Assembly: GCA_021604365.1 (NCBI GenBank)
Contig: BQIZ01000018.1
Coordinates: 1-36,293 of the forward strand
Reading direction: 5' to 3'
DNA: 36,293 nucleotides
Origin: Nitrospirales bacterium
Lineage (GTDB): Bacteria; Nitrospirota; Nitrospiria; Nitrospirales; UBA8639
Under the pieces are notes generated by a model that was given only the letters and a program-made list of their open reading frames with translations, did no database searches and had not been told where the DNA came from. This document shows, one piece after another, positions 26,004 through 34,066 of this stretch (the first letter of the stretch is position 1; every line of letters begins with the position of its first letter). The position numbers and the translations under genes are program-made.

Positions 26004-26243
26004 ATGGACGAATTAGAAGGCGGAAAACAAAAATTTCTTGAGATAGTGAATACTCTGGATGCCTCTGTGGAAGTGGTCATCCCGACCACTCCTTCGCGCA
26101 GTGTTTTGCTCATTTCCCTTACCAAGGGCTCCAATCGTAAATTTATTACAATCCATGAGGATGATATGTTGGACCTTCCAGAAGAATCTGGCGTTCAAAC
26201 CAAAATCACAACTCTTCTTCAAGAAACCCTGGAAACCTTATGA
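26004..26243 (+). CDS. Hypothetical protein, 79 aa, coupled to an MBL-fold protein
   Basis: A short protein with no recognised domain. It looks alpha/beta with a conserved-style hydrophobic strand (VEVVIPTTPSRSVLLISLTKGS) and an acidic tail. Its ATGA stop/start overlaps the next gene by 4 nt, so the two are probably translated together and may form a complex. The start ATG is 26004 with TTAGGG a short way upstream. Confidence 0.7.
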   Translation: MDELEGGKQKFLEIVNTLDASVEVVIPTTPSRSVLLISLTKGSNRKFITIHEDDMLDLPEESGVQTKITTLLQETLETL

Positions 26244-26839
26244 AAACCATTTTACCCAATATTTCTGAATGGTCCTGGTTCTCTGAAGAAAAACAGATTA
26301 ATTTTAACGGACATTTATTAGCCGTGGGAGAACATCGGATATTAGTCGACCCCCCACCCATGAGCGATGGTGATATGGCCATGACGCAGCGGGGAGGAGC
26401 ACCGGATTATATTATATTGACTAATCGGGATCATGAACGGGAAGCGGCCAACTTCAGGAAAACCTTTAAGTGTCAGGTGATGGCTCCGGAATTGGATGCC
26501 AAAGAAATGATGTTGCCCATTGATAAAACCTTCAAAGACGGTGAATTGCTTCCAGGGGGAATTTGGGTTGTTCAACTTTCTGATCAAAAATCTCCAGGGG
26601 AAAGCGCCTTATTCTTGCAGCAAGGCCAGGGGGTGCTCATTGTTGGAGATGGAATCATTGGGGATCCAGCAGGTGCACTACGGCTTTTACCTTCAGAGAA
26701 ATATGACAACATCGTCCTAGCCCGTGAAGGTCTTCGTAGGTTATTAAAATATACGTTTGACAGTCTCCTTGTGGGAGATGGCACTTCCATCCTCACGGGG
26801 GCCAAGCCGGCACTGGAAGACCTCTTGGTAGATAATTGA
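26240..26839 (+). CDS. Metallo-beta-lactamase-fold-like protein, degenerate metal site
   Basis: A 199-residue protein with the pattern of small metallo-beta-lactamase-fold proteins: a leading beta-strand region (ILVDPPPMSDGDM), the region DYIILTNRDHERE that replaces the usual THxHxDH motif, and late VLIVGDGIIGDP and LLVGDGTSIL strands. Only an Asp-His of the metal motif is visible (64-65), and other ligands look absent, so it may not bind two metals as the active family does. It overlaps the preceding 79-residue gene by 4 nt. A function in binding or regulation rather than hydrolysis is inferred. Confidence 0.7.
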   Translation: MKTILPNISEWSWFSEEKQINFNGHLLAVGEHRILVDPPPMSDGDMAMTQRGGAPDYIILTNRDHEREAANFRKTFKCQVMAPELDAKEMMLPIDKTFKDGELLPGGIWVVQLSDQKSPGESALFLQQGQGVLIVGDGIIGDPAGALRLLPSEKYDNIVLAREGLRRLLKYTFDSLLVGDGTSILTGAKPALEDLLVDN

Positions 26840-26906: not shown

Positions 26907-27710
26907 ATGGCCTGGTCTCAATCCGCCAATCTCAATTCTTTAGGCAATCAGCACTTCTCGAAAGGCTTCTATACCGAAGCTTTTCAATATTATGCGCAGG
27001 CCCTGGAGGTTGATCGTCAAAATGGAGACCAACGGTCTTTGGCCACCACACTTGGCAATCTTGGTAATATTTGCGCAGTGAGTGGTCGCCGGGAACAAGC
27101 CAGAGCGTATTATAGTGAGGTGTTAGAACTTCAAAAAATTCTTGGTGATGATCGGGGGATCAGTACGACTTTAGCCAATTTGGGAAACCTTTCCGCCGAT
27201 GCTGGAGAATGGGAACGAGCCCAGGCCTATTATTTAGAGGCCTTGGATTTAATGAATCATTTGTCCGACTATGCCGGAAAGGCGGTATTACTTTCTGATT
27301 TGGGATTAGTCGCGAGGGAAACAGGCAAGGAAGAAGAAGCGCTTGCCTATTATCAGGAATCATTAATCCTTATGCGCCGTGTCGGAAATGAAGCCGGGCA
27401 ATCCGATGTCTTTCGTATGATGGCACGGTTATATTTGAGTCAAAGACGATTTGAGGAAGCGCAATCTTGCACCTTGACCAGTCTGGATGTCGCCAGGCGG
27501 CTGAAGGATGAGCTCCGTATGGGCGGTGCGTGGTATGTTCTTGCCAGTTGCCATGAGGCCCAAGGCCAATGGAGCCAAGCCGCCCAATATTTACAAAAAG
27601 TCGTTAGTATAGACCAAAAATATCAATTACCAAAACTCACCGAAAACACCCAGAGATTACATGCCTTAGAATCTCGTCTGAGCGCCACCACTGGACACAC
27701 GCATGAGTGA
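26907..27710 (+). CDS. TPR repeat protein
   Basis: A 267-residue protein made of tandem tetratricopeptide repeats, about six units from residue 5 to 240. The repeats show the usual pattern (LGNLGNICAVSGRREQARAYY, then LANLGNLSADAGEWERAQAYYLEALDL). No signal peptide is evident, so it is probably cytoplasmic. TPR proteins act as protein-binding scaffolds. Its end overlaps the next gene by 8 nt, so the pair may work together. Partner unknown. Confidence 0.85.
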   Translation: MAWSQSANLNSLGNQHFSKGFYTEAFQYYAQALEVDRQNGDQRSLATTLGNLGNICAVSGRREQARAYYSEVLELQKILGDDRGISTTLANLGNLSADAGEWERAQAYYLEALDLMNHLSDYAGKAVLLSDLGLVARETGKEEEALAYYQESLILMRRVGNEAGQSDVFRMMARLYLSQRRFEEAQSCTLTSLDVARRLKDELRMGGAWYVLASCHEAQGQWSQAAQYLQKVVSIDQKYQLPKLTENTQRLHALESRLSATTGHTHE

Positions 27711-28146
27711 GTCTTTCGACCGTTCAACCCTGTGGCTTCAGGCCAGGACCTATCTTGTGAGGGAATTTCACGGATGGTTGGATATCCATTCGACGGATGC
27801 CCTAACCCTCCCCCTACCAGATGAGGACTGGTTGCTTGAAATCACTGCTGACGGTAAACTTGTGTGTGTGGCAGGCTACGATCTGGATGATATGAAAAGC
27901 ATGCTTTCGGATGGAACGCCCGAAGATTTGGGAACGGACGAACTTGCGAAACAAGCTAAATTTTATTTACAACAAACCGTTTCCAAGCACCGTCCAAAAC
28001 TCCTGCGCCAAGGTTTCAAGGAACGAATTGAGATGAATGAGTCGCATGTGGCCGCACACTATGAACGCCCGGTCGATTTAGGGAAACTGGCCGATCTTCA
28101 TCAGCAAATTAAGACCTGCCTGACCTTGTTTCCGGCTTCACACTAA
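27703..28146 (+). CDS. Hypothetical protein, 147 aa, coupled to TPR protein
   Basis: Begins inside the 3' end of the TPR gene (8-nt overlap). Unrecognised. It has an N-terminal amphipathic stretch, a beta-like middle (DEDWLLEITADGKLVCVAGYDLDDMK), and a C-terminal helical part rich in Lys, Gln and His. No signal peptide or membrane span is seen. The tight overlap suggests coupled translation with the TPR gene; nothing more can be said of its job. Confidence 0.7.
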   Translation: MSESFDRSTLWLQARTYLVREFHGWLDIHSTDALTLPLPDEDWLLEITADGKLVCVAGYDLDDMKSMLSDGTPEDLGTDELAKQAKFYLQQTVSKHRPKLLRQGFKERIEMNESHVAAHYERPVDLGKLADLHQQIKTCLTLFPASH

Positions 28147-28198: not shown

Positions 28199-29224
28199 GT
28201 GAAACAGCCCTCAACGTTCATCACATCCTTCAAACAATTTAGAGACGCCGCCTATGCCTTCCGATTGCCACGGATTATTTTTTCCGCACTAGAGCTCAAT
28301 CTATTTACCAAGATGGAAAATCGGGATTGGACGATTTCTAAGTTAGCCAAGCATCTAGGTGTGAGCCAACGTGGCCTTGGAATCTTATGCCGGAATCTTG
28401 CCAGTGCAGGATTATTAGTCAAGTCTCAATCGGGATACCATCTTACCCCATTTTCCAAACGCTATCTCCAAGAATCCAGTCCGGACTTTCGAGGAGACTA
28501 TCTGGGACTCATGCAGCGTCAGTGGAGCGAATGGTCCCATCTGACAGAAGTCATACGTGTCGGTCAGCCATGGAACAGCACGGAACCGGAAACCACGGAA
28601 TATCGACGGTCGTTTTCCTGGGCCATGCATCATCGCTCCCTCCAACCGTCCAGAGAGGTCGCACAACAGATTTCTCTAAAAGCGGCTCGTTCCCTTCTCG
28701 ACTTAGGCGGCGGGCCCGGAACTTATGCTTTGGCGTTTTTAGCGCTGAATCCAATCCTTCACGCCACAGTGATGGATCGGCCTGCTGCTCTGGATGTGGC
28801 ACGTATGCTGGCGGAACAGTCTTCCTTGGGAACCCGTTTGACCTGTCAAGCTGGTGATTTTTTAACTGCACGGATTCCCGGCACCTATGATGTTGTCTGG
28901 TATTCCAATGTTCTTCATATTTATTCTCCGGCAGACAACCTGAAAGTTTTTAAAAAAATCAAACGAATCCTCAACCCTGGTGGACGGCTTCTCATCCAAG
29001 ACACATTTTTGCAGGACCAAAAAGAACTTCGGCCTCTTGAAGCAAATCTCTTTGCCGTCTCCATGTTACTTTATACTGAGCAAGGCAACACCTATTCCGT
29101 CCGAGATGTTCGAGAGTGGCTTCAACGAGCTGGACTCACTCGTTCTCGGGTTCTCCATATGAAAGAGGGAACCGGAGATTGGGATGGGCAATTGATTGAA
29201 GGGCGACTTCCGCGCACTGGTTAA
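28199..29224 (+). CDS. Winged-helix SAM-dependent methyltransferase (O-methyltransferase family 2 type)
   Basis: A 341-residue protein starting with GTG at 28199. The N-terminal part (about 15 to 100) looks like the dimerisation/winged-helix region of small-molecule O-methyltransferases (LELNLFTKME, ISKLAKHLGVSQRGLGILCRNL). The Rossmann SAM domain has SLLDLGGGPGTYAL (about 166 to 177), a VVWYSNVLHIYSPADN motif and LNPGGRLLIQDTFL. This family methylates hydroxyl groups of phenolic or polyketide-like compounds, but the substrate here is unknown. It is the last plus-strand gene before the histidine kinase, which is convergent. No ribosome binding site is clear. Confidence 0.85.
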   Translation: MKQPSTFITSFKQFRDAAYAFRLPRIIFSALELNLFTKMENRDWTISKLAKHLGVSQRGLGILCRNLASAGLLVKSQSGYHLTPFSKRYLQESSPDFRGDYLGLMQRQWSEWSHLTEVIRVGQPWNSTEPETTEYRRSFSWAMHHRSLQPSREVAQQISLKAARSLLDLGGGPGTYALAFLALNPILHATVMDRPAALDVARMLAEQSSLGTRLTCQAGDFLTARIPGTYDVVWYSNVLHIYSPADNLKVFKKIKRILNPGGRLLIQDTFLQDQKELRPLEANLFAVSMLLYTEQGNTYSVRDVREWLQRAGLTRSRVLHMKEGTGDWDGQLIEGRLPRTG

Positions 29225-29375: not shown

Positions 29376-31553
29376 TCAATGTTTTCGGTGTTCCGGATTG
29401 GGCAACATACTCTGCGTTGGAGAAACAGATGTCGGTGCTGGTGAGCTTGGGAGGTTCACAAGAAAGGTGGCTCCCCCTCCTCTCAAACTTTGTACCTCAA
29501 TACTTCCACGATGTTCTTGAATAATTTGATGGGCAATGGCCAAACCCAAACCTGTTCCCTCATGTTCCTGACTTAAGTGTTTCGTGGTAAAAAAAGGATC
29601 AAATATATGCTCGATGTCTTCCGGATTAATGCCCTTTCCGGTATCTTGAATATCCACCTGCACCCAATTTTGAGCCAGACCTGAGCCAATCATTCGAGTC
29701 CGCACCGTCAACACGCCACCATCTGGAAGCATGGCTTCCACCGCATTAAACAATAGGTTAAGAAACACCTGCTTTAATTGTTGCCGGTCGGCAAATACCT
29801 TTGGCAACCCATGGGCTAAATCTGTTTCGACAACAATCAATTCGTGAGAAGGACGAATCCTGAGGGTATACAAACAGGATTCCACAATATCATTAAGATC
29901 TTCTTCCTTGAGAAACGGTTCCATCGGTTTGGCATAATCCAAGATCTCCCGTGTGAGCCGTTCAATTCGAAACACATCTTCTTTGACAACCTTACTGAAT
30001 CGTACGAGAAACTGCTCATCATCCTTTCGTTCAGGTGCTAGGTCCACAAACGCTTTGATCGACGTCAGTGGATTTCTTATTTCGTGAGCTAATCCGCCTG
30101 CCATGGTCTCCAGAGAACGAAGCCGATCAGTCCGACGAACTAACGACTGTGAGCGCTTAAGCTCTTCATACAGCAAGGCATTGTCTAACGCCACGGAAGC
30201 TTCCTGGGATAGGGTCGTCAATAAATCCAAATCCTGGGTCGTATACCCGCCGCCACTTTTCGTATTAGGTCCAAACACACAAAAACCTAAAAGCCGTGTT
30301 TTGTTAACCAAGGGCAAACAAACTTCCGTTCCAATGTCCGCGAGCTGCGCGATGACGGCTTCAGAGTCAGAGTTAATGGTAGAGAGTTCCAATTCATTGA
30401 TGACAAAACAGGACGTGCCTTGTCTCCACATCTCTAACAAAGTAGGAGTTTTTTGCAAATAGAGAACAGGAAGATCATTAGTAGATTTTCCAAAGCTGGA
30501 TACCGGTCGATAATCCTGACTGCTGGAACTTCGTAGATATAAGACTCCCCATTGCAATCCTAATGTGGGACAAATGGATTCCACGATGGTTGCCGTCAAA
30601 TCTTTTAATTCCAGAATGGAGACGAGTGATTTGGAAAAATGAACGACCGTTTCATGTCGGTCATATCGTTCTTTGAACAATGATTTCGTGATTAATGTTT
30701 TGGCTTCCCGTTTTAAAGAAGATGCTCCAAGCACCAAGATAAGCAATACGCTTAATTCCACAAAAGAATAGGCGATATTAATTTGCCCAAAGTACAGACT
30801 TTGCCCAAGAAGAAGGATCGGATAAGCAGGGAAAGCTACGAGCGCTAACAATAGGCTCCCCGTAATGCCTCGTTCAACAGCAGTCCCGAGATCCATGAGC
30901 CGGTATCGCAGGAGTGTATAGGCTACGACCGACGTATAGACAGTCAGAAGAATTGTCCCGTTCGGTGGGATCTCAACCCCATACCAAAGAGGAAAGGTCG
31001 TCACCCCCCCTGCATACGCAATGACTGATCCGATGGTGAGAAGGTAAAACCGCGAGCGTTCAGGGCCAGTTCTGCTCCGTGCTCCATGGTAGAGCAACCA
31101 TGTTCCATAAATAGTCGATAGGCCAAACCCCAGGAGATAGAAATGGAAAAAAGGCCCGGGCTTCGGCCAAAAGAGAAAATCACCAACAGGATGAACATCG
31201 GCCACAAAATAGGAGGTGAAATTCGCGAAGAAATAAATCAAACTGGTTCCCCATCCAAGACGGATAATCCATCTGTTCGATTCCACTTCATCCAATAAGG
31301 TTAGGACGTGCCACAGATAGGCTGCGGGAAGAAAGATTGCTCCGACCATCAGCAAGCGAACAAAGAAAAGGGCGAGGTCGTGGGAGGACTCAAGCTGCCA
31401 GGCGCAAAAACCATATCCCCAAATGGCGGCAGCTAAACAATACAGGGCATAGGCTTGATGTTTGGGACTTCGAGGGTTTTTGGCGTAAACAATAAGGCCG
31501 GAGGCCGTGGCGGCGAGACCATTCAGGAGTCCGCTGAAGGCGTAAAAATTCAC
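29376..31553 (-). CDS. Membrane histidine kinase with GAF domain
   Basis: A 725-residue sensor kinase. The first 265 residues hold about seven or more hydrophobic segments (a 7TM-like sensory region), followed by a GAF domain (about 305 to 460, with TDVCLPLVNK-like LGFCVFGP strands), then the HisKA domain with the phospho-accepting His490 in GGLAHEIRNPLTS. The HATPase domain has the N box LLFNAVEAM, G1 DTGKGI, F box FDPFFTTKH and G2 GTGLGLAIAHQI. A short Pro/Ser-rich tail ends it. It starts with GTG at 31553 and has a weak ribosome binding site. No response regulator gene is beside it. It lies downstream of the LuxD-like fusion gene on the same strand with a 245-nt gap. Confidence 0.93.
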   Translation of the reverse strand: MNFYAFSGLLNGLAATASGLIVYAKNPRSPKHQAYALYCLAAAIWGYGFCAWQLESSHDLALFFVRLLMVGAIFLPAAYLWHVLTLLDEVESNRWIIRLGWGTSLIYFFANFTSYFVADVHPVGDFLFWPKPGPFFHFYLLGFGLSTIYGTWLLYHGARSRTGPERSRFYLLTIGSVIAYAGGVTTFPLWYGVEIPPNGTILLTVYTSVVAYTLLRYRLMDLGTAVERGITGSLLLALVAFPAYPILLLGQSLYFGQINIAYSFVELSVLLILVLGASSLKREAKTLITKSLFKERYDRHETVVHFSKSLVSILELKDLTATIVESICPTLGLQWGVLYLRSSSSQDYRPVSSFGKSTNDLPVLYLQKTPTLLEMWRQGTSCFVINELELSTINSDSEAVIAQLADIGTEVCLPLVNKTRLLGFCVFGPNTKSGGGYTTQDLDLLTTLSQEASVALDNALLYEELKRSQSLVRRTDRLRSLETMAGGLAHEIRNPLTSIKAFVDLAPERKDDEQFLVRFSKVVKEDVFRIERLTREILDYAKPMEPFLKEEDLNDIVESCLYTLRIRPSHELIVVETDLAHGLPKVFADRQQLKQVFLNLLFNAVEAMLPDGGVLTVRTRMIGSGLAQNWVQVDIQDTGKGINPEDIEHIFDPFFTTKHLSQEHEGTGLGLAIAHQIIQEHRGSIEVQSLRGGGATFLVNLPSSPAPTSVSPTQSMLPNPEHRKH

Positions 31554-31798
31554 GTCAAAAACAATGAAAGATAATTGTTTAAACTAGGTCATTGGTTATG
31601 TACATCATGTAGAAAGGCTATTGGACAATAAACGCATCCAGAAGTCAAAAGGGTTGGCAATTTGAATTGTCGGAGGGCACCTTCTCTTGTGCCCCAGTGG
31701 ATGAAACTCTCCTTTCCCATTCGTGCTTGAGCAATGTCAGTGATGTGTCGCCTGCGGGATGTGGTATTCCTAAAATATATTTGCAGAAAGGAGAAGTC

Positions 31799-34066
31799 TT
31801 ATGCCACTTGTTTCAGAGTTCCCGGCAGAGGGTTTAGTCTTGGGAATTGTTTTTCATTCCGGATCATTGGTCTTTGCGCTTGACCGCAGACGACTGGTTT
31901 GTCTAATACGATGAGATAGGCTTGTCCTGCAAACGTTGAAAAAATCCCCGCATTTGCACGGCCCAATGTCTTGATGATCCTTTCCCATCGTGTTCGATCA
32001 AAAAAGCAAAATTGCCCTTCCTTTTCGGCCTGTCTGATTTTTCCGTAATTATTCAAGAGATCCCGTGCTTCTTCCCTTTGCTGTGGGAGGGCAGCATTGC
32101 TGACCAGGCTCTGGTAAATCCCGGAAAAATCCCCATTCGGTTTTAAATTGGATATGACCATTCGTCCGCCTGGAGCCAGGACTCGATATAGTTCCCGCAA
32201 AGCCGCACCTGGATCCTGAACATATCCAATCACTAAATTAGAGACAATTCGGTCAAATTGGTTCTCGGGAAAGGGGAGCGGCTGACCTAAATCGACTTGT
32301 GCCCATGTTTTTGTGACGGAAGGTGTTGATGCAATCTTGGTATGTTGACATTCGGTGGTGGCTGCGACCATCGCTTCATTGGCGCGCTTCAATGCGTCAG
32401 GAACGACATCAATTCCCACATACTGAATGGACTCCTCCAGGCACGGGATTCCAGGAGAAGTGGTGGAGGCAAGCCCATTCAACAAGTACAACCCCGCATT
32501 GCCATTTCCACAACCGGCATCCAGAATTTTTTGACCAGGAGAGATGGGGCCTAAGGCATGAAACGCATGGTCGAGGAGTTTCACATAATCCCGGCATTTG
32601 GCAACCGACTGAAAGTGACCCAAGTAATCCTGCCAAAAGCCTGCCCCGACGTCGGTCTCTGCCTGTTGGTGTTGCGCAATTTTTTCTCGTCGGTTTTGAC
32701 GTCCCAATTCTAGTCGATTGGGATTGTGGATCGTCTCAGAAGGGTTCTGTGCGATATGCTCTTGGCACTGTGCGATGAGTTGTCGATAAGTTTCTCGGGC
32801 CATTTTGGGGTTTTCTTGTAGACGATGCAATGCATTAGGCACCACAATCCATTGTTCAAGACGTCGACCCAATGCGTTTCGAAACGCCTGTAGATCATCG
32901 GAGGCCACCCAGGAATCTTTTTCGGCGGAAACCAGTATGACGGGGGAGGTTACCGATGTCGCATCAATCAGGGTGTGTTCAAGAGTGACAAATTGGTTCG
33001 CAATAGCATCCCCCAAAAAATGATTCCCCACATTGAAGCCCAAAAAATTCGCTGAGTCAGGGCACTGCCCATTGCCATAGCCGGCGAAGAGATCCTCCTG
33101 ATGAACCGTGGCTACGGAGCGTTCAACATTGACAATGCCCATGAGCATGATCAAGAGAGATACTGATGGACATTCAACCTCGGCTTTGAGGGCGACTCGT
33201 GAAGCTAAACTTGAGGCCACACCGATTATTGCTGAGTCCGGCCAAGTTGTCCTGACGTAACGGGTCACGGTTTGAAAATCATCCTTCATTGATGAAAGAC
33301 ATATTTGATAGTGCAGCCCATCACTTTCGCCGATATGATTGGTATGGTCATAGCGTACGACATGAAATCCATTGCTGGCAAAGTAATATGCCAAGGCCAA
33401 ATAATCCCGCTTCGTTTCCCCGTATCCCGGGGCAATAACGACGACAGGGCCTTCTGCTGGATTTCCTTCAATTGGTCCGTCATGGAAGGCTCGAATCCTT
33501 TGCCCATTGCTTTTTTCAATGGTGAGACGATTACTGCGCACGCCCTTTTTGGGAGGATGAATGGGCTCGGCCTTAAACTCTTTTTCCTGTTCACGAGGAC
33601 CAAAACCAGAAACTGAATCCGAGCCTTCTGACTTAAGGTGCCCATACACCACGAGTCCCTCTCCTTGATTTGGCAGGAATCTGGTAACCGTCGAAGTTGA
33701 ACAGTGTAAAAGAATGTTTGTTGTTCCTTCCCAGGCGGTGTGACCTGTTTCCACATGGATATCTTTGATCATTCCCTGGACCGTGGTCAGGGAATGGTCC
33801 TGACCCGAAACACGATATTCCCACTCAATGATCTGCGATAGTTCAATTGGAGGAAACCCAGTCAAACGCAATCGTACATTGTGCTCGTCCCATTCAATCA
33901 GGTACCCCTCCCAAGTCCCTCCTAGGCACCGCAAAGAGAAGGGAAGTGGTGAATGTTCACGAACTCCAGAAAAGTCAGCAGGAAATACCTCCACATTGAG
34001 CTGCTTTAACCCAACAAATGGAATCTTTGAAGTCATACCCGCCAACTCTGGTGTTAATGTGCTCAT
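31799..34066 (-). CDS. Fusion: unknown N-terminal domain, LuxD-like acyl hydrolase, SAM methyltransferase
   Basis: A 755-residue three-part protein. Residues 1 to about 170 are beta-rich and unrecognised. From about 180 to 440 it resembles LuxD, the myristoyl-ACP thioesterase of bacterial luminescence: the stretches NGFHVVRYDHTNHIGES and GVASSLASRVAL match the family order, and the triad seems intact as Ser286, Asp384 (AEKDSWV) and His414 (ALHRLQEN). From about 470 on it is a class I SAM methyltransferase (ILDAGCGNGNAG at 514, then FDRIVSNLVIGYVQDP and LAPGGRMVIS). The start is ATG 34066 with a strong GGGAGGG site. No lux-type luciferase or reductase is near. The substrate is unknown; it may release or remodel an acyl group. 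Confidence 0.85.
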   Translation of the reverse strand: MSTLTPELAGMTSKIPFVGLKQLNVEVFPADFSGVREHSPLPFSLRCLGGTWEGYLIEWDEHNVRLRLTGFPPIELSQIIEWEYRVSGQDHSLTTVQGMIKDIHVETGHTAWEGTTNILLHCSTSTVTRFLPNQGEGLVVYGHLKSEGSDSVSGFGPREQEKEFKAEPIHPPKKGVRSNRLTIEKSNGQRIRAFHDGPIEGNPAEGPVVVIAPGYGETKRDYLALAYYFASNGFHVVRYDHTNHIGESDGLHYQICLSSMKDDFQTVTRYVRTTWPDSAIIGVASSLASRVALKAEVECPSVSLLIMLMGIVNVERSVATVHQEDLFAGYGNGQCPDSANFLGFNVGNHFLGDAIANQFVTLEHTLIDATSVTSPVILVSAEKDSWVASDDLQAFRNALGRRLEQWIVVPNALHRLQENPKMARETYRQLIAQCQEHIAQNPSETIHNPNRLELGRQNRREKIAQHQQAETDVGAGFWQDYLGHFQSVAKCRDYVKLLDHAFHALGPISPGQKILDAGCGNGNAGLYLLNGLASTTSPGIPCLEESIQYVGIDVVPDALKRANEAMVAATTECQHTKIASTPSVTKTWAQVDLGQPLPFPENQFDRIVSNLVIGYVQDPGAALRELYRVLAPGGRMVISNLKPNGDFSGIYQSLVSNAALPQQREEARDLLNNYGKIRQAEKEGQFCFFDRTRWERIIKTLGRANAGIFSTFAGQAYLIVLDKPVVCGQAQRPMIRNEKQFPRLNPLPGTLKQVA

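Follow-up and report, generated by a model that had tools for sequence, protein, structure and literature searches.

A conserved family of Nitrospirota proteins, in which a LuxD-type hydrolase is fused to a SAM methyltransferase and whose gene is in most cases followed by that of a histidine kinase, suggests that bacteria of this phylum make and sense a fatty-acid-type signal by an enzyme design that has not been described before. Nitrite oxidation in soils, the sea and wastewater is the work of Nitrospira and its relatives. Signalling reported from Nitrospira relies on acyl-homoserine lactones, and it is described as unclear whether nitrification is under the control of this signalling (PMC8553950). 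If our reading is true, Nitrospirota would possess a second, lineage-specific signalling route besides these lactones; LuxD, best known from luminescence, would acquire a role in signalling; and acyl-release enzymes and ketosynthases would be interchangeable in front of a single type of sensor. A literature search found no paper that describes the fusion or its operon.

Two catalytic domains in one polypeptide

The window, by which we mean the whole stretch of 36,293 nucleotides analysed here, carries the fusion gene at 31799..34066 of the minus strand, the strand on which all parts of this gene and its partner located below also lie. From an ATG start it encodes 755 residues that comprise a PilZ-like domain, a LuxD-like hydrolase and a SAM methyltransferase. 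The original prediction placed the middle domain (residues ~176-440, 32747..33541) close to the LuxD family and joined it to a methyltransferase, and Pfam profiles bear out both domains. Residues 183-428 score 92.9 bits with Acyl_transf_2/LuxD (PF02273; E 2.9e-26), a model whose gathering score is 20.3; the general Hydrolase_4 model reaches no more than 53.2 bits on the same protein, and the closest PDB sequence is 1tht, the myristoyl-ACP thioesterase of Vibrio harveyi. The same structure is the top PDB match by fold: a usable AlphaFold2 model of the fusion protein (pLDDT 79.6) retrieves 1tht in Foldseek with an E value of 3e-18 and a TM-score of 0.83 on the target. LuxD is also the best match in NCBIfam (NF052253), at 94.6 bits against an equivalog cut-off of 420, so that the hydrolase is a relative of LuxD and not LuxD itself; the earlier label of 'LuxD-like' therefore holds for the LuxD superfamily and fails for LuxD proper.

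In a family profile alignment Ser286, Asp384 and His414 (33209..33211, 32915..32917 and 32825..32827), the predicted nucleophile, acid and base, fall opposite Ser114, Asp211 and His241 of 1tht, the catalytic triad of LuxD, and all three columns are conserved among relatives of the window protein. In the AlphaFold2 model Ser286 sits between strand 280-285 and helix 287-298, Asp384 follows strand 376-381 and His414 follows strand 403-409, a predicted placement that is the usual alpha/beta-hydrolase layout as judged by topology and superposition score, not in angstroms. Alignment and modelled topology are in accord with the earlier claim that the triad is intact. Of the two outcomes named beforehand as refuting that prediction, a middle domain placed among general alpha/beta hydrolases without LuxD affinity did not occur, and neither, as far as topology and superposition score can show, did a triad whose residues stay apart. 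With LuxD of Vibrio the domain shares its fold, its triad positions, a non-GxSxG nucleophile context (A-x-S-L) and the RYD..HxGxSxG segment; it differs in being fused to a methyltransferase and a PilZ-like domain, in having a histidine kinase for a partner, and in standing outside any LuxC/E/A/B operon. The absence of a LuxCDE operon had been noted at the outset, and the fusion proved to be the sole PF02273 protein in the genome. Luminescence of the LuxCDE type was rejected on searches for LuxD and LuxC, which gave this single gene and no convincing LuxC: the two PF05893 matches, both outside the window, are borderline (20.9-21.4 bits for a cut-off of 21), and most control genomes match too.

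The methyltransferase domain (residues ~500-725, 31892..32569) scores above the gathering thresholds of Methyltransf_11, _23 and _31, with class I models matching residues ~497-702. Its SAM-binding motif DAGCGNG (residues 516-522, 32501..32521) is intact and the acidic D553 follows, so that both the DxGxGxG pattern and the acidic residue after strand 2 are present. D516, G518, G520, G522, D553 and Y615 are invariant in every one of the 39 family members whose hydrolase Ser and Asp are intact, which argues that the two active sites are maintained together.

A chance reading frame or an assembly artefact can be dismissed, for the fusion recurs in many independent assemblies, single-contig genomes included. 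Measured against a 91% identical relative, the window gene has a dN/dS of 0.34 overall and 0.22 in the LuxD domain, and against a 76% identical relative 0.21 overall. The gene is under purifying selection, and the first pair of ratios, together with the many Nitrospirota genomes that carry the same fusion, likewise argues against a frame that is open by chance.

A degenerate PilZ domain at the N-terminus

The N-terminal domain (residues ~36-147, 33626..33961) had been left without a name in the original prediction; we read it as a degenerate PilZ domain. Pfam PF07238 has no match in the N-terminus of the window protein, but it matches 11 of 37 relatives, and at the same place relatives have PilZ domains that Pfam recognises, singly or in pairs, complete with ERRxxxR and NxSxxG motifs. 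In hhalign comparisons the window-type N-termini match N-termini from other genera within the family at 95%, and the latter match a canonical PilZ set at 96.5%; the direct comparison of window type with canonical PilZ gives 2%, too weak to count, so the assignment draws on these intermediates and on the fold. Since hydrolase and methyltransferase matches headed the Foldseek list of the full model, residues 1-175 were folded alone. They are predicted to form a small beta-barrel, for which the PilZ domains of YcgR (0.99, E 0.05) and BcsA (0.98, E 0.11) have the highest probabilities among the Foldseek matches listed. The likeness to these PilZ effectors is one of N-terminal fold and, in relatives of the window protein, of the RxxxR and D/NxSxxG motifs as well, whereas window-type N-termini lack both c-di-GMP motifs and the window copy lies below Pfam detection. 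With the motif residues gone, the PilZ domain of the window protein probably no longer binds c-di-GMP.

Spread and architectures of the family

The fusion is a conserved Nitrospirota family. It was recovered from many genomes of the phylum, 69 of the 296 sampled across Nitrospirota and 133 of 247 in the class. All named full-length relatives belong to Nitrospirota or to Nitrospira MAGs, by which the window's genome falls within or close to the order Nitrospirales, and a GTDB scan with degenerate peptide patterns, which were derived from one sequence, returned full-length matches in Nitrospirota only. Beyond the phylum, 299 Pseudomonadota genomes contained no fusion (their two matches lie in LuxD-sized frames of ~310 residues), no match came from 244 genomes in the phylum to which the Coleofasciculus locus belongs, and plasmids held no fusion and one LuxD-only match; as most phyla, Desulfobacterota and Myxococcota for example, were outside this search, restriction to Nitrospirota is not proven. 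Architectures range from LuxD and methyltransferase alone (549 residues, L108) through PilZ-LuxD-methyltransferase (672 residues in L107), the window type (~755-800) and PilZ-PilZ-LuxD-methyltransferase (~910-1060) to REC-PAS-PilZ-PilZ-LuxD-methyltransferase (~1120-1435), and some genomes contain both an intact and a decayed paralogue.

A histidine kinase as usual partner

Following the fusion gene is that of a sensor histidine kinase of 725 residues (29376..31553), with HisKA_7TM at residues 14-222, GAF at 315-457, HisKA at 481-543 and HATPase_c at 589-703. The next same-strand gene is a histidine kinase similar to this partner in 54 of 66 loci, against a background of one histidine-kinase-like gene among the 426 that lie more than three genes away from fusion genes, and where the remaining flanking genes vary from one family to another, the kinase alone is shared. 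Besides the window, the partner kinases of four distant loci (L107, L108, L113 and L114) carry HisKA_7TM; to our knowledge, no ligand of a HisKA_7TM domain has been described. The partner shares its membrane-GAF-histidine kinase layout with PrsK, the kinase of XrtA/PEP-CTERM systems, but scores 150.2 bits against TIGR02916, for which the cut-off is 300. A second kinase, 36% identical to the partner, is encoded elsewhere in the window's genome (G000:C20, L165:8011-10161), and the acyl enzyme is absent from the 8 kb before it.

In many relatives, from several lineages, the operon continues to a sigma-54 (AtoC/NtrC-like) response regulator and an RR-HD-GYP protein. There is no response regulator in the operon of the window's own lineage, where the nearest RR-HD-GYP relative (40-55% identity) is encoded elsewhere; in one genome, G026, enzyme and kinase are on different contigs. 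Fusion gene and kinase gene are separated in the window by a 245-nt intergenic stretch (31554..31798) in which no terminator-like site was found. Within this gap the block CTTTTGACTTCTG...ATTGTCCAATA, at 31600-31660, is well conserved among five relatives and may act as a promoter of the kinase gene or otherwise regulate it.

Decayed active sites and a possible replacement by a ketosynthase

In the ~1400-residue forms, REC-PAS-PilZ-PilZ-pseudoLuxD-pseudomethyltransferase, both active sites have decayed and the fold, the operon and the kinase have been kept: Ser286 has become Asp in 17 of 18 readable sequences, Asp384 and His414 are lost, and the methyltransferase residues G522, D553, Y615 and K642 are largely gone. 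The kinase partners of these forms are soluble proteins of ~420-450 residues without the membrane (7TM) part. Set against one another, enzyme state and kinase type give 36 cases of intact enzyme with membrane kinase, 19 of lost enzyme with soluble kinase and one of lost enzyme with membrane kinase; the contrast is essentially one evolutionary event, and because the tree holds only one or two independent pairs no significance is claimed for it. As the long forms retain their operon without either active site, the fusion protein can serve without catalysis, and in Nitrospira-type genomes these forms are candidates for a signalling hub built on a pseudoenzyme. The long-form proteins of L050, L053, L054, L055, L058, L059, L122 and others have a histidine-kinase-like middle region. 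Nitrospira-type genomes also have, ahead of the long-form operon and in conserved order, a trio of genes for a PP2C phosphatase, a SnoaL-like protein and a protein without a Pfam match (L122:13828-14577, L122:12825-13706 and L122:11749-12861, respectively).

Other relatives bring further acyl enzymes into the operon. An acyl-CoA dehydrogenase gene lies directly upstream of the fusion in the class-level relative L110, and its cluster is also present in L109 and L112. In three lineages whose hydrolase is dead or deleted, a PilZ-ketoacyl synthase III (KAS III) stands directly before the 7TM kinase. In G046 (L052, L157) the nucleophile Ser is replaced by Asn and the methyltransferase motif is kept, the order of genes being enzyme, PilZ-KAS III, 7TM kinase, sigma-54 response regulator and RR-HD-GYP. 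G186 (L121) is missing the LuxD domain and has an intact methyltransferase motif, with PilZ-KAS III before the kinase. The third, G700 (L144), keeps the methyltransferase motif beside a triad that reads G/G/Y; the kinase next to its enzyme is only a short N-terminal remnant, and a pair of PilZ-KAS III and 7TM kinase is found on another contig (L160). These cases represent three assemblies, and inspection by eye finds the Cys/His/Asn motifs of KAS III intact in L052/L157 and L121. The dehydrogenase, the KAS III swaps and the joint decay of both sites in the long forms point to an acyl product. The fusion of PilZ to beta-ketoacyl-ACP synthase III (L052, L157, L121, L160) is itself unusual.

A proposed acyl signal and its rivals

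Our tentative reading, to which we give slightly less than an even chance, is that a bifunctional acyl enzyme makes a ligand for the adjacent kinase, a fatty-acyl compound that is probably methylated at its carboxyl group. Ser286 of the LuxD-type triad would accept the acyl chain of acyl-ACP or of some other thioester, and the chain would then be released from the Ser286 acyl-enzyme; the adjoining SAM methyltransferase would methylate the released product, most simply at its carboxylate, to give a fatty-acid methyl ester as PhcB does. The 7TM-GAF histidine kinase of the adjoining gene would bind this product as its ligand, and the output in relatives would pass to the sigma-54 response regulator and to the RR-HD-GYP protein as a c-di-GMP phosphodiesterase. 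The N-terminal PilZ-type domain, degenerate here, may be or may once have been a c-di-GMP-responsive regulator of the enzyme. We hold the methyl ester in particular with lower confidence than the acyl ligand, and the 245-nt gap, the lack of an operon response regulator in the window's lineage, the separation of the two genes in G026, the missing PilZ motifs and the long forms that do without either active site all count against the acyl-ligand reading.

Known systems offer precedents for parts of such a scheme. In Ralstonia the methyltransferase PhcB makes 3-hydroxy fatty acid methyl esters, which are sensed by PhcS, a kinase of the same operon (PMC8578825), and the thioesterase activity of RpfF, a crotonase-superfamily enzyme, releases DSF-type acids that are sensed by RpfC, with the HD-GYP protein RpfG as output (PMC4504480). 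As in Rpf- and Phc-type systems, the gene of an acyl or methyl enzyme adjoins here that of a membrane sensor kinase. With Phc (PhcB, PhcS, PhcR and PhcQ) the window shares the order of a SAM methyltransferase gene and then a sensor kinase gene and, if our proposal holds, an acyl methyl ester as product; the proposed likeness is one of function and layout, and the methyltransferase here differs in being fused to a LuxD-type hydrolase and a PilZ domain. What it has in common with Rpf is an acyl-thioester enzyme, a membrane kinase and an RR-HD-GYP protein encoded together (the last in relatives, not beside the window gene), whereas RpfF has a crotonase fold and this system would employ a LuxD alpha/beta hydrolase with a methyltransferase and a HisKA_7TM kinase sensor. 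By analogy, then, the proposed system is like Phc and Rpf in function and unlike either in parts. The conserved histidine kinase and the acyl enzymes in the operons lend support to the original suggestion that this is a novel arrangement for making a lipid or a signal. Architecture, kinase partnership and conserved catalytic residues are observed; substrate, product, ligand sensing and c-di-GMP control we infer. A fuller version would be an undescribed Nitrospirota acyl-signal system in which a thioesterase and O-methyltransferase polypeptide supplies a methylated fatty-acyl ligand to a dedicated 7TM kinase, PilZ-KAS III can refill the hydrolase slot, and c-di-GMP acts through PilZ and the downstream HD-GYP protein; this may be so, though we hold it to be less likely than not.

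One rival is a non-catalytic module in which the LuxD and methyltransferase domains sense the metabolic state by binding acyl-ACP and SAM and relay it to the kinase by contact, catalysis being minor or absent. The ~1400-residue forms, with fold, operon and kinase retained after the loss of both sites, are in its favour. Yet a large and deep set of members, other classes of the phylum among them, strictly preserves the catalytic residues, the methyltransferase motif does not vary among the 39 intact members, and where the long forms lost their catalytic residues the kinase is without its membrane part, all of which makes us consider a non-catalytic module unlikely. The same joint decay would also suit a pair that writes and erases, in which the methyltransferase places a carboxyl methyl ester on a partner, either an acyl carrier or a protein that could be the kinase itself, and the hydrolase cleaves it off again, so that the kinase is adjusted much as receptors are by CheR and CheB. 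Alpha/beta hydrolases do act as carboxyl methylesterases, BioH and PME-1 among them, and a hydrolase and a methyltransferase in one chain beside a kinase fit such a pair; the hydrolase, however, is specifically LuxD-like, that is, an acyl-thioester enzyme, and the three lineages without a hydrolase keep the methyltransferase and have a ketoacyl synthase before the kinase, which synthesis explains better than erasure. We rate this as improbable.

Internal lipid maintenance, with an acyl-ACP thioesterase and methyltransferase working on envelope or storage lipids and the gene merely regulated by the adjacent kinase, seems to us equally improbable. Enzyme genes commonly lie beside their regulators, and acyl-CoA dehydrogenase and KAS III neighbours suit lipid synthesis too, but the polypeptide itself carries PilZ, REC and PAS domains and the operon includes RR-HD-GYP, both of which point to signalling, and no further lipid-pathway gene adjoins the fusion among the annotated neighbours. 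Least probable by far is a bifunctional biotin enzyme like BioH and BioC, capping and cleaving the methyl ester of malonyl- or pimeloyl-ACP. BioH-BioC fusions have the same domain order, and the methyltransferase bears a weak similarity to BioC; its scores of 33.9 and 30.2 bits against TIGR02072 are nonetheless far under the cut-off of 185, the hydrolase is of the LuxD type and no biotin genes were seen adjoining, on which grounds a BioH/BioC identity was rejected.

Divergent neighbours

On the far side of the kinase gene the window holds four divergent neighbours that are conserved in the same bacterial family: an O-methyltransferase (Methyltransf_2, 28199-29224), an unknown protein of 147 residues (27703-28146), a TPR protein (26907-27710) and a metallo-beta-lactamase-like protein (26240-26839).
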